Shown: positions 30,289 to 52,952 of the stretch, one piece after another
How the letters are laid out: every line of letters begins with the position of its first letter
How positions within the stretch are numbered: position 1 is the first letter of the stretch
Assembly (NCBI GenBank): GCA_947492375.1
Contig: CANLMI010000003.1
Span: 124,001-188,000, forward strand
Direction of reading: 5' to 3'
DNA from: an uncultured Kordiimonas sp.
Lineage (GTDB): Bacteria > Pseudomonadota > Alphaproteobacteria > Sphingomonadales > Kordiimonadaceae
DNA length: 64,000 nt
Made by a program: the position numbers and the translations under genes
Notes under the pieces: model-generated
Told to the model about the DNA's origin: nothing
The model's database searches: none
What the model saw: the letters and a program-made list of their open reading frames with translations, nothing else

Positions 30289-31206
30289 TTGGGGGTTAAA
30301 TTGGCTAATAATACAAATACGCGCATTACGCTGGATTGGCAGGAAATTTGGCAAGATATACTTGGCTCCGGCTTTTGGGTTATCGCTATTACTCTAGTTG
30401 CAATCTATACTGGGACAACTGCGTTATTAATTGAGGGGCCTTGGCAGACTGATCAGGATAGTCATGGGCCGTTTATTTTATTGATTGTTGCTCTCATCAT
30501 TTTACTGAAAGCGCATAAATTAAGAGAAATAGAACCACCACAATCAAGTTTTCTAGGCTGGTTGTTCTTATTGGCTGGTTTATTCTTTTATGTGGTTGGA
30601 CATTCCCAAGAGATCATGTTGTTAGATGCAGGCTCGATAATACCTGTTTTAACCGGAGTGATCTTGATTACGAAGGGTAAAGAAGGATTAAAAGAGCTTA
30701 TCTTTCCGCTTTGTTTTTTGATTTTTGCTGTTCCCATGCCTGGATGGTTGATGGACGGGCTAACTCAACCGATGAAATTGGCCTTGTCTGACCAAGTTGT
30801 TGATATGCTTTATGGGTTTGGTTATCCAGTAGCGCAGAACGGTGTGATTTTATATATCGAGCAATACCAGTTGCTTGTGAAAGATGCGTGTGTTGGATTG
30901 AATTCATTACATAGTTTGGCAGCTGTTGGAATTATCTATATTTATCTCTCAAAACCAAGCCATATATTACACACGTTGTTTTTACTCCTGATTATTGTTC
31001 CTGCAGCTTATGCGGCTAACCTTGTTCGGGTGATTGCCTTGGTGCTGATTACTTATTATTTTGGCGAGGCTGCAGGGCAAGGGTTTTTACATGATTTTGC
31101 TGGATTGGTAATGTTTGTAACGGCCTTGGTATTATTTATCGCCATTGATAGTGTTATTTTCTTTGGGATTATGTGGTCTAAAAAAAGAGAAGCGGCAAAG
31201 TTATGA
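30289..31206 (+). CDS. Exosortase (XrtB/XrtV type)
   Basis: This 305-residue integral membrane protein has eight or so hydrophobic segments and the transpeptidase-like triad of exosortases: Cys201 (KDACVGLNSLHS), Arg247 (AANLVRVIAL) and His268 (GQGFLHDFAG). The spacing and the ITYYFGEAAGQGFLHDF block match exosortases B and V rather than XrtA. It should recognise PEP-CTERM tails, cleave them and attach the protein to the envelope or polysaccharide. The candidate substrate is encoded at 37070-37579. The start is a TTG; another TTG four codons later, with GGGGG before it, is equally possible. EpsI overlaps its stop. Confidence 0.88.
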   Translation: MGVKLANNTNTRITLDWQEIWQDILGSGFWVIAITLVAIYTGTTALLIEGPWQTDQDSHGPFILLIVALIILLKAHKLREIEPPQSSFLGWLFLLAGLFFYVVGHSQEIMLLDAGSIIPVLTGVILITKGKEGLKELIFPLCFLIFAVPMPGWLMDGLTQPMKLALSDQVVDMLYGFGYPVAQNGVILYIEQYQLLVKDACVGLNSLHSLAAVGIIYIYLSKPSHILHTLFLLLIIVPAAYAANLVRVIALVLITYYFGEAAGQGFLHDFAGLVMFVTALVLFIAIDSVIFFGIMWSKKREAAKL

Positions 31207-31910
31207 TCAAACGGCCTCCTTTTAAATTAGCTATGATTGGTGTGTCCCTGGTTTTTGCGGGACTTGCGGCACAATATTTGAAGCCAACAGAAGTTTCTGC
31301 GGTAGTGAAGGCTGATTTTGTCCTTGACGAGCTCGTACCCACAGAATTTGGCGAATGGTATGAAGATCAATATATTAAAGCTATTCAACCTCTTGAACAG
31401 AGTACTTTAGCGGATAAGATTTATAATCAAAGCCTTTCAAGAAGCTACCGTAATGCTGACGGTGATCTGATTATGCTGGTAATAGCGTACGGACGTCATC
31501 AAAGCGATAATCTTCAGCTCCATTTGCCTGAAACATGCTATGCGGCAAACGGTTTTAAGGTTGGTAATCCAAGCGTTGAAAGATTATCGATTATTAAGAA
31601 CGGTGAAGCTGTTTTGCCAGCTAAACGTTTATATACCACAAATGGACCACGGAGTGAGCCGGTTACTTACTGGACTCGTGTTGGCGATGATATTCCAACA
31701 TCACAAGCCGAAAGGCAAATTGGAAAGCTTCTTTATGGTTTATCAGGTAGGATACCTGATGGTATTTTAGTTCGAATTTCAAGTTTCGGGGATTTAGATA
31801 ATAAGTCTTTCGAAGTTCATGATGCATTTATACAGGAGCTGTTGGCAGTACTTCCTGATGAGAGTTTGCCATTATTCCTTGGAAAGTTATCAAATACACA
31901 AGAAATATAG
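31203..31910 (+). CDS. EpsI family exosortase-associated protein
   Basis: This 235-residue protein has one N-terminal membrane helix and the DUF3485/EpsI domain with the conserved LHLPETCYAANGFKV motif (about 105-120). The ATG overlaps the exosortase stop codon by 4 bases (ATGA), so translation is coupled. EpsI is either a free-standing gene or fused to exosortases in many loci. It acts with the exosortase in the periplasm, with unknown chemistry. The V-type or B-type subclass is inferred from the exosortase. Confidence 0.87.
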   Translation: MIKRPPFKLAMIGVSLVFAGLAAQYLKPTEVSAVVKADFVLDELVPTEFGEWYEDQYIKAIQPLEQSTLADKIYNQSLSRSYRNADGDLIMLVIAYGRHQSDNLQLHLPETCYAANGFKVGNPSVERLSIIKNGEAVLPAKRLYTTNGPRSEPVTYWTRVGDDIPTSQAERQIGKLLYGLSGRIPDGILVRISSFGDLDNKSFEVHDAFIQELLAVLPDESLPLFLGKLSNTQEI

Positions 31911-39728: not shown

Positions 39729-39790
39729 TTCAGATTGCCAGACATTAGTTCGAAACAACATATCCCCTCCTTTATTTGCTTGAGATCGTT

Positions 39791-40963
39791 ATGAAGAAAA
39801 AAATTCTAATCGTTGGTACTGGCTATGTTGGTTTAGCGAATGCCTTACTCCTTGCTCAGAAAAACTCTGTTGTAGCGTTGGATATATCTCAGGAAAAAGT
39901 TGACAGTATAAATAATAAAAGATCGCCAATTGCGGACCGCGAAATAGAAGACTTTTTAGAAAATAAAGACCTTGATCTGATCGCAACGACTGACAAAGCA
40001 TTGGCTTATAAAGATTGCGATTTTATCTTTGTTGCCACGCCTACTAATTATAATCCTGTGACGAATTATTTTGATACATCAAGTATCGAAAGTGTTTTGG
40101 AGGATATAAAGCAATATTGCCCAGAGGTTTTGACGATAATAAAGTCAACGGTACCTGTGGGGTATACTCAAAAAACAGCCGAACAATTTGGTATGTCTAA
40201 TATAGTCTTTTCACCAGAATTCTTACGTGAAGGGAAGGCGCTTTATGATAATTTATATCCTTCACGTATAATAATTGGTGAAAAGAGTGAACGCGCGCAA
40301 TCGGTTGCTGATTTGCTGCAAGACGGCGCCTGTAAAGACAATATAGAGGTGTTACTTGTTGACTCTACAGAAGCCGAAGCCGTCAAACTGTTTGCAAATA
40401 CCTACCTTGCCATGCGTGTTGCGTTTTTTAATGAACTAGACAGTTTTGCTGAGGCAAGGGAGCTAGATACAAAACAGATTATTGAGGGGATATGTTTAGA
40501 CCCCAGAATTGGCCAAGGGTATAATAACCCATCTTTTGGTTACGGTGGCTATTGTTTGCCAAAGGATACTAAACAACTTTTGGCTAATTATCGGGATGTG
40601 CCCAATAATATGATCCAGGCGATTGTTGAAGCAAACCGTACCCGAAAGGATTTTGTTGCAGAATCCATTTTGCGTAAAAAGCCGAAAACGGTTGGTGTGT
40701 ATCGTTTGGTAATGAAATCAGGGTCGGATAATTTTCGGTCAAGTTCGATCCAGAGTATTATGAAAAGATTAAAGGCTGTTGGTATTGAGGTTATTATTTA
40801 TGAGCCACAGCTTTCAGAACCACACTTTGAGAATAGCGCTATTGTCAATGATTTGAATACTTTCAAAGAAAAATCTGACCTAATTATCGCAAATAGAATT
40901 TCGCCTCAAATCGAGGACGTTAGGACAAAAATCTATTCACGTGATCTGTATGGAAGCGATTAA
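39791..40963 (+). CDS. ugd: UDP-glucose 6-dehydrogenase
   Basis: A 390-residue protein from the ATG at 39791; an upstream TTG is possible. It has the NAD fingerprint [19 protein letters not shown] and [10 protein letters not shown]. The catalytic region [15 protein letters not shown] has the active-site cysteine, and [20 protein letters not shown] is also present. Length and sequence match the short (E. coli Ugd-like) type. It makes UDP-glucuronate for an acidic sugar in the polymer, consistent with the nearby PssD/PssE-like transferase, whose Rhizobium relatives use UDP-glucuronate. Confidence 0.92.
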
Positions 40964-40989: not shown

Positions 40990-41973
40990 TTACTTATTAA
41001 TGAACAGATCGATATGATATGCGTAGCTATCAGGATTGATTTCGATCATCTTGGGCTCCATTGATCTAGCCTTGACAATCGCCGCTGCCAGCTCATCCTG
41101 TGTCCGAGCCTCTATAACTAACCCCATATCACGAAAAGCACCAACTAGTTCGAATTGGTGGTCGTCGTAATGCTCGCCCATGTCGGCACGCCTCGGCATT
41201 GCAATTACAATACAGCCAAACCTGATGGCACCTAACATTGACCCAGACCCACCATGAACAATCGCAATTTTGCTTTCTTTCAAATGCCCGTTTAATGTTT
41301 CTTGTGTCAGTGTTTGTTTCACAGACATTGTTGAAGGGGCAATATCACTCTCACCTACTTGAGCGAAAACCTCTTCATTGATGAGGCCTTGGTTCTTTAA
41401 AGCATCAATATCATTTATCATTCGGTCAAAAGGCATCACAGTTCCGACCGTCAGAAAAATTTTATCTTGTTTCTGATTGCTGTCGGCAAGGGGCGCTTCT
41501 TTGAAGGGGTTACAGTAAACGGCTTTGGGGTGTTGCTTTTCAAGTTTAGGCCATTGGACTAGATACATGCCGGCGTATCGGGCGGCCAAATTACCGAATA
41601 GGGAAATAGTTTCTACCCGCGCTATTGATTCAATATAGATTACCTTGCGTTTGAAAAGCCAAGCAAGAAAGAGGGTAAAGAAGGCTGCGCCTGCGCCGGT
41701 ACTGATGACAACATCAGGTCTGATAGTGATAAAATGCCATAGAGACATCAGGCCATTTGTAAAACCAGCCCAAAGAAATTTGATGAGGCCAATTGTTTTG
41801 CGTTGCCCAAATGCGAAGTGGGGTACCAGTCGAACTTTATGATCTTCTGCTAAGCTAAGGCCGAGCGGGGTTGCTTCGGTCAGGAAATAATAATCGTGTT
41901 TTTGGGCGTACGGTAACATTTGTAATAATTGGCGCAAATGACCACCGCCGGATGCTGCAAGACACACCTTCAT
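40990..41973 (-). CDS. Fused Alg14-Alg13-like (PssD-PssE-like) glycosyltransferase
   Basis: In its 327 residues the N-terminal half (about 1-155; VCLAASGGGHLRQLLQML, DVVISTGAGAAFFT) matches the membrane-associated Alg14/PssD/CpsF part. The C-terminal half (about 165-320; IFLTVGTVMPFDRMI, IVHGGSGSMLGAIRFGC, MPRRADMGEHYDDHQFEL) matches the catalytic Alg13/PssE/CpsG part. These are usually two proteins; here they are one chain. Family members add the second sugar (glucuronate, galactose or GlcNAc) to a lipid-linked glucose. With ugd next door, glucuronate is the likely donor sugar. Confidence 0.85.
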   Translation of the reverse strand: MKVCLAASGGGHLRQLLQMLPYAQKHDYYFLTEATPLGLSLAEDHKVRLVPHFAFGQRKTIGLIKFLWAGFTNGLMSLWHFITIRPDVVISTGAGAAFFTLFLAWLFKRKVIYIESIARVETISLFGNLAARYAGMYLVQWPKLEKQHPKAVYCNPFKEAPLADSNQKQDKIFLTVGTVMPFDRMINDIDALKNQGLINEEVFAQVGESDIAPSTMSVKQTLTQETLNGHLKESKIAIVHGGSGSMLGAIRFGCIVIAMPRRADMGEHYDDHQFELVGAFRDMGLVIEARTQDELAAAIVKARSMEPKMIEINPDSYAYHIDLFINK

Positions 41974-43564: not shown

Positions 43565-45013
43565 ATGGAAGCCAAATCTATTGAACCTTTGAAGGGTAGA
43601 AATAGCAAGCCAGTTAATCCCACACTTATCGAAATTTTCTTACATATCAGTGATGTGTTAGCAGTTTTGATAGCAGGAGTGCTTGCGTTTTATTTGTTTG
43701 ACAGCCGTATTATTGGTGACATTAGGGGAACATATGTAAATATCATTGGCCTGGGCGTGATTTTGTCGAGTATGTCGATATTTTTATGTGGTGGCTACGA
43801 TACTGATACATATTTTAATCTTGGCAACTCTTATCGAGGCTTTTTGACCGGTTTTTTTCTAACGGTTTCGATTTTGTTAGTAGCTGGTTTTGCCTTTAAA
43901 TTGACAGGTACCTTCTCGCGCCTTTGGACTACTGGGTGGCTTACAGGCGCGCTTGTTTTACTCGCTGTTGGGCGATTTGGTGTTTGGATGATAGCGCTTC
44001 GTATGCGCAAAAAAGGTGTATTTGACTCGCGTATTGTCATTGTTGGGGCAGGGGAACAAGGCGAGAGACTGTGTCGTTTTATTAAAAATAGTGAATGGCT
44101 TACGATGAATGTGATCGCATTCATTGATGACCGGGCAGACCGTGTCCCGAATAATATTGATGGAATCCCCGTGGTTGGTGGACGTAGGGACCTTATTCGT
44201 CTCATACGGAAAAATAAAGTAGATCAGGTTTTGATTTCGCTGCCTTGGTCAGCCGCTGAACGTTTACAGGAAATCATTGATGATATTGCGGAAACACCAA
44301 TAAAAATCCGTTTAGCCCCCGATCTCGCTATCTTTAATTTTGGCGACCGAACGATTTCATCGCTTGGTGGCTTACCTGTTGTTAATCTATTCGATCGTCC
44401 TATTAAAGGTACCAGATCGATGTTAAAGAAAGCCGAAGATCTGATTTTAACAAGTTTGATCTTGCTCGCAATTTCGCCGATATTAGCGATGGTTGCGCTT
44501 GCTATTAGAATTGATAGTCCTGGGCCAATATTTTTTAGGCAAGACCGTGAAGGCTTTAATAATAGCACTTTCAAGGTTTGGAAGTTTCGTTCCATGTATC
44601 ACAATATGGGGCAGAATGACCAAATTCAGCAGGCTACCAAAGGGGATAGCCGTATTACTAAAGTGGGTGGGTTTCTCAGAAAAACCAGCCTTGATGAATT
44701 ACCTCAGCTCTTCAATGTTCTGTCGGGTGATATGTCCCTTGTGGGGCCACGCCCTCATGCTCCTTCCACGGAAGCGGCAGGCGTTAAGTTTGAAGACGCT
44801 GTAAGGCGCTATGCATCCCGTCACAGAGTAAAACCCGGCATCACCGGTTGGGCGCAAGTTAATGGCTGGCGCGGTGAAACCGATACGATTGAAAAGCTGG
44901 AAGCACGCCTTCATCATGATTTATATTATATCGATAATTGGTCTGTGGGCTTTGATATTTATATTCTTCTTAGAACTGGCCTCGTGTTTTTTGGTCAAGA
45001 TGAAGCGTATTGA
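43565..45013 (+). CDS. Undecaprenyl-phosphate sugar phosphotransferase (WcaJ/PssY family)
   Basis: This 482-residue polyprenol phosphosugar transferase has four to five N-terminal helices (about 20-140) and a CoA-binding-like Rossmann domain (IVIVGAGEQGERLCRFIKNS). After a fifth membrane segment comes the catalytic domain: SPGPIFFRQDREGFNNSTF, KFRSMYHN, RKTSLDELPQLFNVLSGDMS in two blocks, VGPRPHA and GWAQVNGWRGET. It starts the repeat unit by moving glucose 1-phosphate (or galactose 1-phosphate) onto undecaprenyl phosphate at the inner membrane. The full-length two-domain form argues for glucose. Confidence 0.92.
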   Translation: MEAKSIEPLKGRNSKPVNPTLIEIFLHISDVLAVLIAGVLAFYLFDSRIIGDIRGTYVNIIGLGVILSSMSIFLCGGYDTDTYFNLGNSYRGFLTGFFLTVSILLVAGFAFKLTGTFSRLWTTGWLTGALVLLAVGRFGVWMIALRMRKKGVFDSRIVIVGAGEQGERLCRFIKNSEWLTMNVIAFIDDRADRVPNNIDGIPVVGGRRDLIRLIRKNKVDQVLISLPWSAAERLQEIIDDIAETPIKIRLAPDLAIFNFGDRTISSLGGLPVVNLFDRPIKGTRSMLKKAEDLILTSLILLAISPILAMVALAIRIDSPGPIFFRQDREGFNNSTFKVWKFRSMYHNMGQNDQIQQATKGDSRITKVGGFLRKTSLDELPQLFNVLSGDMSLVGPRPHAPSTEAAGVKFEDAVRRYASRHRVKPGITGWAQVNGWRGETDTIEKLEARLHHDLYYIDNWSVGFDIYILLRTGLVFFGQDEAY

Positions 45014-46098: not shown

Positions 46099-46905
46099 TT
46101 ATTGTTGATTAAACTTTCTAATGTTTAGTCTTGCTTTCATTTCTGGAAGAAGCGTTAGTTCGTATCCGCGATATTCTTTACCAATAGATAAATCTTGCTT
46201 CTGTCCTTTAAGTCGAGCATTCATGTAGTCATCTACAACTTTGACGTATGCATCGGCGCCGACTTTGACACTGCGGGCGAAAGCCGAATGAATATTATCT
46301 CCTTTCTCGAGTTTTGCATGATGAACTGCATATATTTCTCCGCCGTCTACCGCAGATGTACATTCGTGAATAGTAGCGCCAATCATGTTTAAATCATTAT
46401 TTACTACAGGCCAAAAAGCACAAGCCGTTCCTCTATAATACGGGCTGATACCAGTGTGCATATTAAAAGATAGGTCCTTGGCTATATCGAGGATATTGTC
46501 TTTAACTATACGAGTTCCATACACTAGTATAGCGTCTGGATTGTAACTCTTGATAGCGGCATATGTTTCTGGAGTATTGAGGCCATCAATTGGTTGTATA
46601 AGATTGTCATCTTGAAATGTTAGTGACATCTCACCAAGAAGGTGTACGAGTGTTTTGCGCCTAGTATTGTGGGTATTGATGAGTTTTAGAAACAATATAC
46701 GACTAGCTTTTCCTAAAAAACTTACAATACCGCGGCGAAAATATGATTTTTTCTTACGTGAGTATATTTTTTTATCAACAAAAATAGCTTGAATTTGAAA
46801 GGCGTCAGCAAGTCTGTTTGCAACATACCTTTGTTCATAATTATCCGTTGTTAAGATAACTATTCTGGGCTTGTGATTGTTGGGTGATAACACCATGCTT
46901 CTCAC
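46099..46905 (-). CDS. Formyltransferase-fold protein (methionyl-tRNA formyltransferase-like)
   Basis: In this 268-residue protein the formyl-transfer core is visible: GTRIVKDNILDIAKDL, the catalytic N-x-H in FNMHTGISPYYRGTA, and the D-G-G of TSAVDGGEIYAVHHA, with an N-H-D catalytic set. The protein is shorter than tRNA formyltransferase and lacks its C-terminal domain, as in sugar N-formyltransferases. It may formylate an amino sugar using N10-formyltetrahydrofolate. No amino-sugar synthesis genes are in the window. The GTG at 46905 and ATG at 46896 are both possible starts. Confidence 0.75.
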   Translation of the reverse strand: MRSMVLSPNNHKPRIVILTTDNYEQRYVANRLADAFQIQAIFVDKKIYSRKKKSYFRRGIVSFLGKASRILFLKLINTHNTRRKTLVHLLGEMSLTFQDDNLIQPIDGLNTPETYAAIKSYNPDAILVYGTRIVKDNILDIAKDLSFNMHTGISPYYRGTACAFWPVVNNDLNMIGATIHECTSAVDGGEIYAVHHAKLEKGDNIHSAFARSVKVGADAYVKVVDDYMNARLKGQKQDLSIGKEYRGYELTLLPEMKARLNIRKFNQQ

Positions 46906-46940
46906 TTGTTGTTAGAAATTAAAATAACGATTGAACCTAC

Positions 46941-48365
46941 TTAGGCGAAACGATCCCGCCAGAAACGGATGAAACTGTCTTTATTTATTCTTTTTAGTAA
47001 TGGACTTAAATAGTCACGATAATCCCCATATTTATTTATAGGAAACTCCATCGCTTCCAGCCATAGAGTTTTCCCTATTTCTGAAAATAGTTTATCTGTT
47101 GTTTTTTCAGTTGGTTGAACTTTCATGAATGCATCTTGTATATTTCTTTGTGCAAATGGCATAAATGCGATTTTTTGAGCTTTTTGGACAGGGGCTTGTG
47201 CCATAGCCCAGCTACCAAAACGTAATTCATTGAATGCAAGGTCCAGAATTGCTGATCGGGGTAGTGATGCGATAGGGGCAAGCCATTTTTCAACACTTTT
47301 AACTACATCCGAATGTAAAGGAAGCGTTAAGCGTGATAATACAAATTCCGCGGTTGCTGGTTTATTGTTTATAATTTCAAAGTCTTGCCTGTAAAGCCGA
47401 CAGCGCCCTGTTTCTCCGTACATACCAGTTAGAATAATATCGTACTCTAGCTGTTTCAGTGTTGGAAAAAAGTTTCTTGTACTTTCTCTTACAACATCTG
47501 AGACAAGCTTATCCCATTCTATTTTTTGCGCTTCATCGGCTTCTAATACTGGGATAAGTTTATGATCCATATTCAGTGTATCTGCTATTAATGCAGGTAA
47601 GTATTGGTCTAAGCCTTGGCCTTCTGAACCAAATGTAAATAATTCTATATCGTTTTCTACGCCTTTGCATGCAGCGATTAACAATCTGCTATCAAAGCCG
47701 GCAGTTGCTGTAACACCTGTTTTATATTCTTTAGCCACGGCGCTTGTGAATGCACTTAACGAGTCCGCAACGTCCTGTATGGCTTTGTCAAAATTGAGGC
47801 CTAAAGTAAATTCTTCAACTATTGGCCAAAACCTATGTGTTTGCCATGACTGAAGGTCTAAATAGAAATTAGGGAGTACTCTAAGAATACCATGATGTGC
47901 TGTTAGGTCACCACTTATCCATGAGCCGGATACTTCATTTTCTACTATTGCTTTATGCCTTTCAGATGCAAACCTTTCTTGATATTCTTGGTCACTTAGA
48001 AACATTGATGTTGACGAGCCAGCGCGCTTGGAATTCGTGCAATAAACCAATGGAATTGAACCACCGCAGTCAGGGTAAAGCCTTTGGGGCAGGTTACTAT
48101 GTGTGTGAATAATGAAATTACCATGAATGTGACTTAGGATGTTTTCTTCAAAGTCTTTAATGTCGTCGAGTGATTTTGTAACTTTGATAACTTCTTCATA
48201 TATTTCGATATCATCGCCGTGATATGTATGCAGAATTAGGCCATAGAGGTCGCCAATAGCTTGTCCGCTAATGTCTTGGATATGATAGTGTTTTAAATGA
48301 CTTGAAATAGATATTATGGACTGGTTATCTATTGTCTGTAGTGTAAATCCAAATGGTTCTAACAT
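46941..48365 (-). CDS. Asparagine synthase-like protein lacking a glutaminase cysteine
   Basis: A 474-residue protein whose C-terminal half (about 190-470) has the pyrophosphatase-type ATP site TATAGFDSRLLIAAC (family SGGxDS), ELFTFGSEGQGLDQYLPAL and ILTGMYGETGRCRLYR. The N-terminal half looks like a degenerate glutaminase (YGLILHTYHGDDI) but begins Met-Leu, with no Cys at position 2, so it would need an external amine. Such proteins in polysaccharide loci are proposed to amidate uronic acids. It lies 35 bases upstream of the formyltransferase gene on the same strand. Confidence 0.72.
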   Translation of the reverse strand: MLEPFGFTLQTIDNQSIISISSHLKHYHIQDISGQAIGDLYGLILHTYHGDDIEIYEEVIKVTKSLDDIKDFEENILSHIHGNFIIHTHSNLPQRLYPDCGGSIPLVYCTNSKRAGSSTSMFLSDQEYQERFASERHKAIVENEVSGSWISGDLTAHHGILRVLPNFYLDLQSWQTHRFWPIVEEFTLGLNFDKAIQDVADSLSAFTSAVAKEYKTGVTATAGFDSRLLIAACKGVENDIELFTFGSEGQGLDQYLPALIADTLNMDHKLIPVLEADEAQKIEWDKLVSDVVRESTRNFFPTLKQLEYDIILTGMYGETGRCRLYRQDFEIINNKPATAEFVLSRLTLPLHSDVVKSVEKWLAPIASLPRSAILDLAFNELRFGSWAMAQAPVQKAQKIAFMPFAQRNIQDAFMKVQPTEKTTDKLFSEIGKTLWLEAMEFPINKYGDYRDYLSPLLKRINKDSFIRFWRDRFA

Positions 48366-48563
48366 CTTATGGTATCTCTCGGAAATTAACTTGATATAAC
48401 TGCGTTGATAAGCGTTATATGCGTAATTTATTATAGAATTAGTAAGTTAAATTTAAAGTAAATGTGTATGAGGTTAAATCTATTTCTAACATTATATATG
48501 TATTAGAATGTTAGAAATAGAATATTACTGTAATTATTGAATTTATCTTAAGCAGGAAAAAAT

Positions 48564-49289
48564 ATGTTGAGAGAAAAAATATCTCGAAAGTTGGCGCAAC
48601 TAGTGCCGCACAAAACTATTAAGATGAATAATACGCGGTCAATGGTTAGTTTTACATTTGATGATTTTCCTAAATCTGCAGCGAAAACAGGTGCTTCAAT
48701 TCTTGAAAAGTATGGGTATAGAGGGACTTTTTATGGGTGTGGTGGTTTGTTTGACCTTGTTCATGATGGAAATCATATAGTTACCGAAGCAGATATCCGG
48801 TCTATTTGTCAAAATGGGCATGAAATAGGATGTCATACGTATGCACATATCGATTGCCAGAAAGCTCCACAAACAGTATTAGCCGCTGATTTACAGAAGA
48901 ATGCACAGTATATTGAGGACATTACCGGGGAAGCTGTATCTAGTTTTGCTTACCCTTTTGGGAAGCTAGATATAAGTTCGCGGAAATCTGTAGCAGAACA
49001 ATATGACACAGCACGTACAGTGTTTCCTGGGTTGAATACTGGAACAGTTTGCCTGCACTCATTAAGGTCTTATAGTGTCTATTCAAGTAATTTTAATTTG
49101 GATTATTTTACCCAAATTATTGCACAAGCAGTTGCTGAAAATGCTTGGTTAATCTTTTATACGCATGATGTGTCCGAGACGCCTGAGAAATTTGGATGCA
49201 CGCCAAAAGAGTTTGAAAGCTTGGTCGCTTGTGTTGCTCAGTATAATATAAAAGTTAAAACAGTGAGAGATGCTACTGTAGCTATTTAA
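48564..49289 (+). CDS. Polysaccharide deacetylase (NodB/CE4 family)
   Basis: This 241-residue protein has NodB-domain motifs: MVSFTFDDFPKS (motif 1, TFDD), HEIGCHTYAHID (motif 2, H-x3-H metal site), FAYPFGKLDISS (motif 3) and WLIFYTHDVSETP near the C-terminus. No signal peptide is seen, so it may act in the cytoplasm on a lipid-linked or nucleotide sugar. It would remove N-acetyl groups, giving free amines. These could be the acceptors for the nearby formyltransferase-fold protein. Confidence 0.87.
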   Translation: MLREKISRKLAQLVPHKTIKMNNTRSMVSFTFDDFPKSAAKTGASILEKYGYRGTFYGCGGLFDLVHDGNHIVTEADIRSICQNGHEIGCHTYAHIDCQKAPQTVLAADLQKNAQYIEDITGEAVSSFAYPFGKLDISSRKSVAEQYDTARTVFPGLNTGTVCLHSLRSYSVYSSNFNLDYFTQIIAQAVAENAWLIFYTHDVSETPEKFGCTPKEFESLVACVAQYNIKVKTVRDATVAI

Positions 49290-49419
49290 GAAAATTAAGA
49301 AATTGATTCACTTTACTTTAATAATCTTAAATTAATTATGGTTTAGAAAAAATGTTTGCCGCGAGTGTAAAGAAACACAAATAGAACTTGCGTTTAATAT
49401 CGAGCTTCTGAGGGTTCCT

Positions 49420-50361
49420 ATGACAAATAATGCCGCGCTAGTAAGTGTGATCATTCCAACGTACAATAGAGCTGAATTAGTATGTAATGCGATTGATAGT
49501 GTAATTCAGCAACAAGTAGATAATGTTGAGATTGTTGTTGTTGATGATGGCTCAACGGATAATACTGAGCAAACTCTGGCAAAGTATGGCGACAGTATTC
49601 GGTACATATATCAGGAGAATACCGGATTGGTAGGAGCCAGAAATACAGGCATACGTCAATCTTCGGGCGACTGGATTAGTTTTTTAGACTCGGATGATGT
49701 TTGGTTACCTAATAAACTTAAAGTTCAACTGGAAGAACTAGAGAGGTCTCCGGATGCTGTAGCGCATTTAACTAATGTAAAATTGCAGCGGAGTTTTGCC
49801 AATGACGAGGATATTTTCTCTCTTAGAAATATGTTATCGCAGTTCAAAGGTGAAGAAAGCCTGTATCTGGAAAGGCCGCTTGCTTTAAATGCTGTCTATA
49901 ACTTTTCTAGAGTCCAGAGCGCATTAGTGAAACGCTCTGCTATTACGGCGACCAGTCTGTTTAGTACAGCTTATCCTTATTTTGAAGAAGAGATTATGCA
50001 TAGAATTAGTCTCGAAGGACCTTGGCTGGTATCCCCGATTCCTTACGCTATTGAAATACGGCATGAAGAAGCCTTTGAAGCTATGGGGGATGCCTCACGA
50101 AGAAAGCCATATATTGCGCATAGATCATATATGGATAGCTTACTGTCTTTGTTATCAGATCAAAGAGTCAATGACACAGAGCAAAAAATACTTGTCAAAC
50201 AGCTATCGCGCTATGCTTATTTGACAGCTCGTCTGTATATGAAAGCTGATATTATGGATAAAGCAAAGCAGGCTATTAACGATGCCCGGGCGTGGGAGTT
50301 CAATTTGAAAAACCAAATGCTATACTTAGCTACATTCATACCATTTCGGTTTTTAAGGTGA
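49420..50361 (+). CDS. Family 2 glycosyltransferase
   Basis: This 313-residue classic GT2 enzyme has SVIIPTYNRAELVCNAIDSV, VVVDDGSTDNTEQTL, NTGLVGARNTGIRQSSGDW and the metal-binding SDD in FLDSDDVWLPNKL. It is probably cytoplasmic or membrane-associated. It contributes one sugar to the repeat unit. It follows the deacetylase gene by 130 bases on the same strand. Donor specificity cannot be read from the sequence. Confidence 0.9.
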   Translation: MTNNAALVSVIIPTYNRAELVCNAIDSVIQQQVDNVEIVVVDDGSTDNTEQTLAKYGDSIRYIYQENTGLVGARNTGIRQSSGDWISFLDSDDVWLPNKLKVQLEELERSPDAVAHLTNVKLQRSFANDEDIFSLRNMLSQFKGEESLYLERPLALNAVYNFSRVQSALVKRSAITATSLFSTAYPYFEEEIMHRISLEGPWLVSPIPYAIEIRHEEAFEAMGDASRRKPYIAHRSYMDSLLSLLSDQRVNDTEQKILVKQLSRYAYLTARLYMKADIMDKAKQAINDARAWEFNLKNQMLYLATFIPFRFLR

Positions 50362-50423
50362 TTTCAATATAGCTGCACATTTGCATGAAAGAGGTTTTTG
50401 ATCGAAATCATTTTTTTTATGCT

Positions 50424-50469
50424 GAATACGATATAGAAGTTTATATGAATACGATATAGAAGTTTATAT
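50424..50469 (+). repeat. Perfect 23-bp tandem duplication
   Basis: The unit beginning GAATACGATATAGAAGTTTA occurs twice head to tail with no mismatch (50424-50446 and 50447-50469). It ends 27 bases before the oxygenase start codon, so it lengthens or duplicates part of that leader. It looks like a recent slippage event. Confidence 0.95.
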
Positions 50470-50496
50470 ATCGAGCCATTATAGGAAGAGTTAGTA

Positions 50497-51324
50497 ATGT
50501 TAAATGTCTCTAAAGAACAAGTTTCTGAGAATCCATATCCTCATATCATTAAAGAGGGAATATTACCTCAAAGCCTTTATGATGCCTTGAAGAAAGATTT
50601 TCCGTCTCAAGATATTTTTAACAGTCAAAAAGATAATTTTGGTTTGCAAGGTAGCCGGACTGGTAGTGGTACAGATATTTATCGGGGGGATCCTGCATTT
50701 GATCTTTTGACTCAAGGCTCTGAAGCGTGGCGAGAGTTTACGAATTACATTAATTCCAAGGATTTTATGAATGATACACTTTCGACCTTTGGTGATTATT
50801 GGAAGCTCAAAGGATGCAGGGTTGATCCAAAGCTAGCTGTCTTTAATGACTATGTTGAACCTCGTGAGGTTATGACAGTAGATGAAACACTGACCGATAA
50901 GCTTTCTAAATTGAGCAAGGGAGTTTTAGGGAAGTCTTTTGGCGAAAAAAATGTAAATGAGCTATTTACACGCTTTGATATACATATGGGTAAAGAAGCA
51001 TATGCCAAGGCAGTTCATTGTGATCGGCCCAATAGGCTTATTTCATTGATTATATATTTTTGCGATGCTGAGGATATTGGTTTAGCTGGTGGAGACTTAG
51101 GTATTCATAAACATAAGAAAGATAAAAAAATATCGCAGTATGAACGCCACCCCAGACCGGATGATACAGAACTAGTTGCTGAATTGCGCCCCAAGGATAA
51201 TCTGGGTGTATTCTTTATGTGCACTAATAACTCTTACCATAGTGTTACAGAGATCACTGCGGCAGAAAAGCCGAGAAACTTTCTTTATCTTAATATCTCC
51301 AGTATGGCTCATGATATTTGGTAG
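50497..51324 (+). CDS. 2-oxoglutarate/Fe(II)-dependent oxygenase family protein
   Basis: This 275-residue protein has the double-stranded beta-helix motif of these oxygenases: HCD in AVHCDRPNRLISLIIYF (about 172-174), the distal histidine in NSYHSVTEI (about 249), and RNFLYLNIS with the 2-oxoglutarate-binding arginine. No signal peptide is present. It would hydroxylate a sugar, lipid or protein residue; similar proteins occur in capsule and EPS loci, without known products. AGGAAG precedes the ATG. Confidence 0.78.
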   Translation: MLNVSKEQVSENPYPHIIKEGILPQSLYDALKKDFPSQDIFNSQKDNFGLQGSRTGSGTDIYRGDPAFDLLTQGSEAWREFTNYINSKDFMNDTLSTFGDYWKLKGCRVDPKLAVFNDYVEPREVMTVDETLTDKLSKLSKGVLGKSFGEKNVNELFTRFDIHMGKEAYAKAVHCDRPNRLISLIIYFCDAEDIGLAGGDLGIHKHKKDKKISQYERHPRPDDTELVAELRPKDNLGVFFMCTNNSYHSVTEITAAEKPRNFLYLNISSMAHDIW

Positions 51325-51355: not shown

Positions 51356-51400
51356 AAAACAAAAGCCTCGCTGTTATAATGGTAGCGAGGCTTTTGTTTT
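51356..51400. terminator. Bidirectional terminator between oxygenase and Wzy-like genes
   Basis: A perfect 17-bp stem (AAAACAAAAGCCTCGCT and its complement) encloses an 11-base loop, with A and T tracts on both sides. It lies between two convergent genes and overlaps the last bases of the minus-strand gene at 51399. Confidence 0.88.
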
Positions 51401-52952
51401 ATGTATGTGGTGCTGTCGTTTCCTTGATTTTTATAGTTTTGTGGACAATTATTAAGGTAACACCAGCCAGAAAATAAATTAAACTATTATTAAATGTTTG
51501 GGATAATACAAGCTTAATCAGCAAAAAGCAGGCTATTGTTGATGCTAGGGCAGCCCCTAATTTTGCAAGAGGGGTTAGATGTTGATCGTAAATATACAAT
51601 TTAGTTGCGTACCAGATCAAGCTTCCAAAGAATATAAGAAAACACACTAAACCAGTAAGTCCTGTTTCAATGGCGACGGATAGCCAGTAAGAGTCAATTG
51701 TGAGATATCCTGCTGGATTTCGGTAATTCAGCTTTGTCGCGCCTTGGCCAATTCCAAATCCAAATATTGGATTAGTGGCGATGATTGGAATGCCATCTGT
51801 TAACTGATGGAGCCGTGCGTCTGAACTGTTGGCGGTAGAGGAGTCACCAAAAATCATACCTCTTATACGTGTGCTGGCAGCCAATACTGTTACAAATGCA
51901 CCAATGCCAGCGATATACATTGTTACAATTGCTGGTCCAATAATGCTTCTGCCATCCTGCAACCACTGACGCAGTGACCAAATCATAATATAGGTCATAG
52001 CTCCGAACAATAGTCCAACATTACCTAACCGTGAACCTGTTTTTAGAACCCCTATAAAAGCGAAAGCTAACACTACAGTTGCAATCAGTTTAAGTAAGAA
52101 GTTTTTCCCTTCCATAATGAAATAAAGAAGAAATGGGGTCATATAGACAAAGAGTTCAGCGAATTCCAATGAAGTGATTGATATGCCGTTAACCCGGTAT
52201 TCACCATTGCGATATATGGGCCGCATAACGCTGCTTGATATAGTTTCGCCGCCGCCAATCATCCAATCAGGAAGGTAAAGCCCGAATAGATTTTGTTCGA
52301 CGTTTGATTGAAAAAAAGCCATCCCGACATAATAACAAACAATTGGGACGACAATATATGTCATTAGCAAGAGTGTTTTGCTGTTTCTTATTGTGGTAAT
52401 TACAGCGAGAAATATGGCAGATGTTACAGTAAAATATTTCGCAAAAAAAGTAAGACTGGTAACAGGAGAAGGTGCAAAAATTATGCTGAGAACCTGTAGT
52501 CCTAATAACATTGTAAAAGAGTACATTATTAAGGGGTGAGTTTTATATAGGTCTTTTAATCTGCTTTTTGCATATTTTGAGACTGAGAAGTTAATGATAA
52601 GGAAGAATAGTAAAATGAATGAAAGAATTCTAGCAGGTGGAGTCCAGATTTTACCTGGAAGAGGGATAAGGCAAACATAGGGCGGCCAGATACAAATAAA
52701 TATAACATAGAAGATGAGCAGTCTCTCGATTATGCTCTCGTAACAATAGTCCAGTTTAGGCATTAACCATATGGCCAATATGATAATCACAATAGTGGGT
52801 AAAAGGGCAATTTGAAATCCAAAAAATCCGCTAAAAGGTATGAAAAGTCCGGTTCCTATTGCTGCGAAAACACTTGTAAGTGTGACGATTAACAAAGCCC
52901 CCCACTTGTAAAGGGGGCGATTTATCGGCGAATAATTGAAGAGAGTTTTCAT
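51399..52952 (-). CDS. O-antigen ligase/polymerase-like protein (Wzy-like)
   Basis: This 517-residue membrane protein has about twelve hydrophobic segments and one large periplasmic loop (about 310-420). The Wzy_C/O-antigen ligase pattern is TGSRLGNVGLLFGAM and IFGFGIGQGATKLNYRNPAG, then DSYWLSVAIETGLTGLVCF. With the Wzx-like flippase next door it most likely polymerises repeat units in the periplasm. It could instead be a ligase, but no lipid A core genes are present. Confidence 0.85.
   Translation of the reverse strand: MKTLFNYSPINRPLYKWGALLIVTLTSVFAAIGTGLFIPFSGFFGFQIALLPTIVIIILAIWLMPKLDYCYESIIERLLIFYVIFICIWPPYVCLIPLPGKIWTPPARILSFILLFFLIINFSVSKYAKSRLKDLYKTHPLIMYSFTMLLGLQVLSIIFAPSPVTSLTFFAKYFTVTSAIFLAVITTIRNSKTLLLMTYIVVPIVCYYVGMAFFQSNVEQNLFGLYLPDWMIGGGETISSSVMRPIYRNGEYRVNGISITSLEFAELFVYMTPFLLYFIMEGKNFLLKLIATVVLAFAFIGVLKTGSRLGNVGLLFGAMTYIMIWSLRQWLQDGRSIIGPAIVTMYIAGIGAFVTVLAASTRIRGMIFGDSSTANSSDARLHQLTDGIPIIATNPIFGFGIGQGATKLNYRNPAGYLTIDSYWLSVAIETGLTGLVCFLIFFGSLIWYATKLYIYDQHLTPLAKLGAALASTIACFLLIKLVLSQTFNNSLIYFLAGVTLIIVHKTIKIKETTAPHT

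Follow-up and report, generated by a model that had tools for sequence, protein, structure and literature searches.

A formyltransferase-fold gene near a CE4 deacetylase in an exosortase-type exopolysaccharide locus of Kordiimonas: a candidate acyl-swap module

Results

The window analyzed here is a 64,000-nucleotide stretch from an uncultured Kordiimonas sp. (contig CANLMI010000003.1, positions 124,001 to 188,000), whose 3.94-Mb genome we call G000, and it carries a Wzx/Wzy-type exopolysaccharide (EPS) locus with a V/B-type exosortase. Our subject is a group of five genes in this locus, encoding a formyltransferase-fold protein (FT), a protein with an asparagine synthetase fold (AsnB-like), a CE4/NodB deacetylase, a GT2 glycosyltransferase and a 2-oxoglutarate (2OG) oxygenase-like protein; all five were found as open reading frames (ORFs) at the positions given in a first-pass annotation, which regarded them as a single tailoring island. 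The word is too strong, since the genes run in two divergent blocks, AsnB-like then FT on the minus strand (35 bp apart) and deacetylase, GT2 and 2OG on the plus strand, and since in the sister genome G001 the Wzy ORF directly follows the deacetylase with neither GT2 nor 2OG between them. FT, AsnB-like and the deacetylase are all kept in G001, which belongs to the same genus. The region has a G+C content of 0.37-0.38 in 2-kb blocks, slightly below most of the preceding locus (0.37-0.42).

FT (46099..46905, minus strand, 268 aa with a GTG start) matches PF00551 (Formyl_trans_N) over residues 109-224 with an E value of 8.2e-9 and 35.9 bits, the Pfam cut-off being 26.1. Residues N148, H150 and D187, which we take to be the catalytic Asn, His and Asp, are conserved in the aligned relatives. 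The closest sequences in the PDB are mostly sugar formyltransferases (ArnA and WlaRD, VioF also), in local matches with E values of 3e-8 to 8e-6, and many of these relatives presumably use nucleotide-linked sugars. The G000 genome holds three further formyltransferase-fold genes able to cover the tRNA and purine roles, with sizes that we assume suit PurN, Fmt and PurU; for this reason a tRNA or purine role for FT, the former named in advance as fatal to the first-pass reading, was set aside. The protein is rare: counting its own genome each time, 4 of the 385 class-level genomes match at E<=1e-12, and at E<=1e-10 the matches number 10 among 296 at order level and 33 among 398 at phylum level.

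A tree was built from 35 chosen FT rows, 34 of them different; it leaves out most weak matches and 15 of the 33 matching genomes at phylum level, namely six further members of family f181 (G607, G483, G684, G543, G585 and G479) and nine lower-scoring unclassified ones (G592, G654, G753, G492, G659, G562, G612, G677 and G594). The window FT, G001, G926 and G1005 form one clade with support of 100/100. Of these, the FTs of G926 and G1005 are the closest relatives from outside the genus, with 40% identity to the window FT, and each has a deacetylase beside it: the ORFs for FT and a PF01522 (NodB) deacetylase share a 4-bp overlap (L155:18738-20002 and L157:17964-19729). NodB also adjoins FT in G152, G390 and G481. 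The half of the tree that contains the window FT has support of only 71/69 and includes 12 rows from outside the genus, of which four have NodB next to FT, six a DUF4910 protein and two neither. The rest of the tree adds a further NodB case (G481) and two of PIG-L, the latter with a 4-bp PIG-L/FT overlap in two plasmid loci that also carry glycosyltransferase and sulfotransferase genes and, in one of them, an O-antigen ligase gene. The neighbor labels come from custom profiles, and Pfam confirmed NodB in 5/5, DUF4910 in 3/6 and PIG-L in 1/2, the second PIG-L being supported by its annotation. There are few NodB matches per genome (three in G926, three in G1005, seven in G152, 15 in G390 and five in G481), so that a chance FT-NodB adjacency should be below 1% in each, assuming about one gene per kilobase. 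A 24-bit NodB match in G753 (L181), overlapping a 704-aa FT-containing ORF, was not counted.

DUF4910/DUF2172 proteins lie directly upstream of FT in six genomes (L041, L042, L043, L119, L169 and L186). We assume that DUF4910 is an M28-like hydrolase, and these proteins are possibly a third kind of deacylase partner for FT. In the 38 kb around each of the G926 and G1005 pairs, the proteins of the window's locus matched no listed ORF except FT and the deacetylase. By eye, one ORF per locus looks GT2-like (L156:6954-8057 and L158:6143-7234), and ribosomal-protein-like ORFs lie about 13 kb from the pairs (L155 and L157).

The window's deacetylase (48564..49289, plus strand, 241 aa) matches PF01522 with an E value of 1.8e-22 and retains the motifs FDD, HTYAH, PFG and THD, presumably its metal and catalytic sites. 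Its best NCBIfam model is HfsH (NF050820, E 3.1e-57), although at 194.1 bits it stays below the cut-off of 400, and its N terminus shows no export signal by eye. Among 346 genomes of the order, four (G000, G001, G003 and G010) have a match to the protein at E<=1e-30. The same four are the only ones with an AsnB-like match among 29 members of the family, and all four carry the exosortase of the window's locus. G005, also of this family, has that exosortase too but no AsnB-like or HfsH-like match, with another NodB-like ORF in the locus. Because only two genera are involved, this co-occurrence represents few independent events.

The partner of the deacetylase changes between the two genera. In G010, from the sister genus, the deacetylase and AsnB-like genes share an exosortase locus, FT has no match at E<=0.001, and the deacetylase ORF overlaps one for an FkbH-domain protein of 614 aa (TIGR01686, 211.6 bits, above cut-off), which may acylate the deacetylated amine; by sequence, G003 has the same layout. 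G000 itself has a second exosortase locus of the classical XrtA kind (L194, G000:C1:1034000-1053000). The WbpS-type protein of this locus scores 708.9 of 816.9 bits, and exosortase A, FemAB, the XrtA deacetylase and the ATPase, also encoded there, score above their cut-offs. Since FT, the FkbH-domain protein and FemAB each stand beside or near a CE4 deacetylase, deacetylation followed by re-acylation with an exchangeable acyl group would be the simplest account of the gene set. In a Pfam scan of all 26 ORFs of at least 150 aa between 25682 and 59399, we found no aminotransferase and no acyltransferase family of the FemAB/VimA type, FT being present instead.

The AsnB-like protein (46941..48365, minus strand, 474 aa) is hardly recognizable from its sequence: no NCBIfam family was matched at E<=0.1, the sole Pfam match was an unrelated one below cut-off (13.6 bits, E 0.085), and the best PDB sequence reached only E 0.68. 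An AlphaFold model based on 57 aligned sequences, from which partial, near-duplicate or weak ORFs and those outside the retrieved loci had been left out, gave a pLDDT of 95.5 and a pTM of 0.93. Foldseek matched it to carbapenam synthetase with an E value of 3.7e-13, and VIA-align gave a Z of 22.0 at 4.1 A over 383 residues for the same structure. The top matches, carbapenam synthetase, the hydroxyamidotransferase TsnB9, AsnB and beta-lactam synthetase, span Z 22.0 to 20.4 with an rmsd of ∼4 A over 354-395 residues, and rows within 1 Z are to be read as tied. The family profile also reaches beta-lactam synthetase (E 0.0035), and PF00733 is matched at E<=0.01 by 3 of the 57 sequences only. An AsnB fold of Ntn-like and PP-loop domains is predicted on the strength of this high-confidence model together with the structure and profile matches.

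The first-pass annotation had described this fold as lacking the glutaminase cysteine, and we agree: the window protein has no Cys in its first 40 residues, though some homologues have scattered cysteines there. An hhalign alignment with the genome's own WbpS-type protein (E 1.7e-4, probability 49%) begins only at WbpS-type residue 62, so that the strand bearing the cysteine is either absent or replaced. The PP-loop reads TAGFDSR, against SGGIDSS in the WbpS-type protein and beta-lactam synthetase, and its T, G and R are each conserved in 56 of the 57 sequences. TIGR03108, the WbpS-type model, was matched neither by the window protein (E<=0.1) nor in the 57-member scan (E<=0.01). On the evidence of the curated model, the cysteine and the profiles, an ordinary WbpS amidotransferase was rejected. 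Some of the best structural matches are synthetases that we take to use an amine other than ammonia; since this is so and the glutaminase is lacking, the modeled protein more likely joins such an amine.

One scan of genome contigs returned 73 AsnB-like loci, 43 of them alphaproteobacterial judging by their titles and the others from further bacteria and archaea. With proteins of this window as queries, at least one EPS-type gene was present in the retrieved stretch of 46 of the 73, against 2 of 30 control stretches that were chosen by hand, not at random, from loci already retrieved (mean length 15.5 kb, compared with 17.9 kb for the AsnB-like loci); one of those two, L206, is part of the G005 exosortase EPS locus. 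Neighbor clustering covered 76 loci, L074 and L075 having been dropped as copies and five loci added. A Wzy_C-like family occurs in 27 of the 76 and is adjacent in 12, its label resting on sub-cut-off PF04932 matches in three scanned members (26.5 to 28.7 of 31.7 bits) and on one member annotated "O-antigen ligase." FT was in none of the 73 loci, so FT/AsnB-like adjacency was seen only in G000 and G001; co-occurrence of the families, the check proposed with the first-pass annotation, came out negative in this respect, and FT and AsnB-like as a general functional pair was rejected.

Several other features of these loci were seen. Another neighbor family occurs in 10 of the 76 and is adjacent in eight (e.g., L056:7607-9115, L007:9995-11470 and L055:8713-9720); of three members scanned with Pfam, one had no match and two matched SH3_3 only. 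Near a Rhizobium AsnB-like gene lie an AMP-binding ligase and a PLP decarboxylase (L059:17469-20317), whose clusters occur in 12 and eight of the 76 loci and which are a possible source of the amine for an amide ligase. Two or three AsnB-like genes stand in tandem in L045, L046, L077, L092 and L105, and MBOAT and GDSL-like genes adjoin the AsnB-like gene of L044. Three loci of equal score and layout (L073, L074 and L075) lie on one 138-kb metagenome contig (PBIL01000001.1), a triplication that is possibly an assembly repeat. On the E. coli plasmid pCE1537-B (L009), a distant AsnB-related protein stands beside wecB/wecC in a capsule-type cluster.

The two remaining genes of the plus-strand block encode a GT2 glycosyltransferase (49420..50361, 313 aa, PF00535 E 1.4e-37) and the 2OG-Fe(II) oxygenase-like protein (50497..51324, 275 aa). 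The latter scores 26.1 bits against PF13640, just below the cut-off of 27, while the G010 homologue, at 52% identity, reaches 32.4 and so exceeds it. Both conserve the HxD...H iron site within an HCD...H...R pattern, and the expected active-site residues of the formyltransferase fold, the NodB deacetylase and the oxygenase are all retained. No PDB sequence was matched by the oxygenase, which has a match in 2 of 59 genomes, its own included, and none in G001. GT2 and the oxygenase were rejected as core members on the G001 evidence and are a strain-variable addition outside the conserved set.

The rest of the locus comprises EpsI, a PEP-CTERM protein (the genome as a whole gives 20 PEP-CTERM matches), Wza/Wzz, a pyruvyl transferase, Wzy, Wzx and a beta-helix/PKD protein. 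The exosortase (30289..31206, plus strand) scores 135.6 against TIGR02602 (cut-off 105.55), 296.8 of 313 against XrtV and 269.8 of 275 against XrtB, and B-type EpsI follows (31203..31910, plus strand, NF045609 222.5, cut-off 220). A UDP-glucose 6-dehydrogenase-like gene, Ugd (39776..40963, plus strand; TIGR03026 343.5, cut-off 189.8; NF011631 609.7 of 757), adjoins a candidate WelK-like beta-1,4-glucuronosyltransferase (40990..41973, minus strand), which matches NF046028 over its full length just below cut-off (385.9 of 400 bits) and whose halves match PssD/PssE models, also below cut-off; by sequence, it likely encodes a glucuronic acid (GlcA)-transferring step of the sphingan type. An undecaprenyl-phosphate glucose phosphotransferase of the WcaJ type (43565..45013, plus strand, TIGR03023 490.5 bits, cut-off 410.75) precedes the five genes, and a Wzy/O-antigen-ligase-type polymerase (51399..52952, minus strand, PF04932 E 1e-15) follows them. 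The 198-bp divergent gap between AsnB-like and the deacetylase (48366..48563) has promoter-like matches on both strands, which mark position only; the promoter/terminator scan gave 11 such matches against a shuffle mean of 19.8, fewer than in the shuffles, and promoters are therefore unsupported.

Discussion

We propose, with confidence that is about evenly balanced, that the conserved core acts as an acyl-swap module, changing the acyl group on one amino sugar of the EPS made in this exosortase locus, with the AsnB-fold protein as a separate amide ligase and GT2 and the oxygenase varying between strains. The HfsH-like CE4 deacetylase would work on the cytoplasmic side and strip a precursor of an N-acetyl group, and FT would then move a formyl group from N10-formyl-THF onto the freed amine. 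The data show which genes are present, their predicted fold and active-site residues, and their conservation and pairing; from these we infer all substrates, the amino sugar of FT from its pairing with deacetylases, as well as the order of the steps and the formyl and amide products. Separately, the cysteine-less AsnB-fold protein may act as an ATP-dependent amide ligase that activates a carboxylate as an acyl-adenylate, the carboxylate most likely being that of GlcA, made available through Ugd together with the WelK-like transferase, and the amine not being supplied by any glutaminase domain within the protein. GT2 and the oxygenase would serve to attach a side group and hydroxylate it. N-formylation after deacetylation is the best-supported part of the earlier interpretation, given the pairing in other lineages, the active sites, the lack of an aminotransferase among the 26 scanned ORFs and the three other formyltransferase-fold genes.

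Several observations weigh against the proposal. FT and the deacetylase of the window lie on opposite strands, and the pairs in G926 and G1005 are not in an EPS locus of the window's type, their deacetylases belonging to another subfamily (18-19 bits to that of the window). In the window's weakly supported half of the FT tree, G531 and G569 have FT with no deacetylase beside it, and a separate group includes Sinorhizobium meliloti, in which FT lies among one-carbon genes and not in a sugar context. No amino-sugar synthesis gene was seen among the scanned ORFs of the locus, so the amino sugar would need general metabolism as its source. To these are added the absence of FT from the 73 AsnB-like loci, the three closest of which (L044-L046) have no match to the EPS query set, and the fact that the AsnB-fold protein could not be superposed at its catalytic residues.

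The opposite strands also fit an explanation in which FT acts on a free nucleotide-activated amino sugar, as many of its closest PDB relatives presumably do, while the deacetylase acts on something else and their proximity within an EPS locus is coincidental. The recurrence of the deacetylase-FT pairing in different lineages and the lack of an aminotransferase among the scanned ORFs make this improbable. We regard as similarly doubtful a polymer with both uronamide and N-formyl groups, in which the AsnB-fold protein would make a primary uronamide on the GlcA carboxylate with free ammonia. Of the uronamide suggested initially, the Ugd-like and WelK-like genes and the AsnB fold stand, and an AsnB-family protein, WbpS, is required for a uronamide in Porphyromonas gingivalis according to PMC7468200. 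But the protein matches no WbpS-type model, the XrtA locus of the genome already encodes a WbpS-type protein, and the lack of a glutaminase cysteine leaves a primary uronamide as one option only and not the favored one.

The trio of FT, AsnB-like and deacetylase might instead make a linking sugar for exosortase-attached PEP-CTERM proteins, comparable to the one that Wbp/Vim provides for T9SS cargo, and not a bulk decoration, an idea that overlaps our preferred explanation, so that the likelihoods given here need not exclude one another. Both exosortase loci of G000 hold AsnB-family or AsnB-fold, CE4 and N-acylating genes, the genome has its 20 PEP-CTERM matches, and section 20 of PMC7468200 contains speculation of this kind on exosortase loci, calling the attachment target of PEP-CTERM proteins an unidentified compound. 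A formyl cap, however, would make the nucleophilic amine of the Wbp/Vim scheme of P. gingivalis unavailable, and G005 has the exosortase with no AsnB-like or HfsH-like match, though with its other NodB-like ORF; we consider a linking-sugar role unlikely, to about the same degree as the two preceding explanations. More speculative still is a modular version, in which a CE4 deacetylase, a swappable N-acylator (FemAB/VimA for aminoacyl, FkbH type for acyl or FT for formyl groups) and an AsnB-fold ligase form a linking-sugar cassette; here formyl would block one amine while the cysteine-less ligase adds an amine-bearing group to GlcA, creating the PEP-CTERM acceptor. There is an equally slim chance that the AsnB-fold protein, FT or both produce a small molecule or have no activity, with no decoration of the polymer. 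Antibiotic synthetases are among the structural neighbors and 27 of the 73 AsnB-like loci have no EPS-type match, but the AsnB-like protein is conserved across the 57 sequences, EPS-type genes accompany it in the other 46 loci, and the Wzy_C-like family occurs in 27 of the 76 clustered loci.

If the acyl-swap module operates as proposed, it would bear on the enzymes that re-acylate deacetylated EPS, which are poorly known, and the locus offers a compact, testable case with formyl as the new group. The two genera, one with FT and the next with an FkbH-domain protein beside the same deacetylase, provide a natural comparison. The unnamed family of cysteine-less AsnB-fold proteins, here 57 aligned sequences, often occurs with EPS genes.

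The individual parts have relatives in known systems. FT shares its fold and its Asn, His and Asp residues with ArnA, WlaRD and VioF but matches them only locally, and its nearest extra-generic relatives stand beside a deacetylase. Like the carbapenam and beta-lactam synthetases, which are tied with AsnB and TsnB9 among its best Foldseek and VIA-align matches, the modeled AsnB-like protein has an AsnB fold without the glutaminase Cys, yet identity is only 12-16% and its context is mostly of the EPS type. With WbpS and TIGR03108 it shares an AsnB family setting in exosortase/EPS loci and differs in having no NCBIfam match, a glutaminase start that is not alignable and a TAGxDSR PP-loop in place of SGGxDS.

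The closest precedents for the set are two. In the Wbp/Vim system, as PMC7468200 presents it, deacetylation is assigned to VimE, a putative CE4 enzyme, and amino-acid transfer is proposed for VimA; the same source already notes sets of AsnB-family, CE4 deacetylase and N-acyltransferase genes in exosortase loci. The window likewise has AsnB-fold, CE4 deacetylase and N-acylating genes together, within 46099-49289, but the acyl group in Wbp/Vim is Ser or Gly through VimA with a WbpS-type amidase, whereas here a formyltransferase fold and a cysteine-less AsnB fold without TIGR03108 take their places. For the Caulobacter holdfast, published work reports HfsH, a predicted CE4 enzyme (PMC8449245), to be cytosolic and suggests that HfsK acylates the amines HfsH exposes (PMC5362036). 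HfsH is the closest curated model for the window's deacetylase, which nevertheless reaches less than the required score, has a partner of the formyltransferase fold and not a GNAT, and belongs to an exosortase locus. The decoration had been called unusual for an alphaproteobacterial EPS; similar published sets in exosortase loci (PMC7468200) detract from this, but the open-licence literature yielded no paper tying formyl to a deacetylase or to exosortase loci, N-formyl sugars being known in O-antigens, and no cysteine-less AsnB-fold partner in such a set. On FkbH and on amide-linked amino acids the literature gave nothing informative, and PMC3684757 and PMC7725333 held nothing that decides the matter. 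Because the Wbp/Vim and HfsH/HfsK accounts exist, a deacetylate/re-acylate scheme is not new, and the window is best seen as a variant of the Wbp/Vim and suggested HfsH/HfsK schemes, with parts of known kinds in a combination that looks new.

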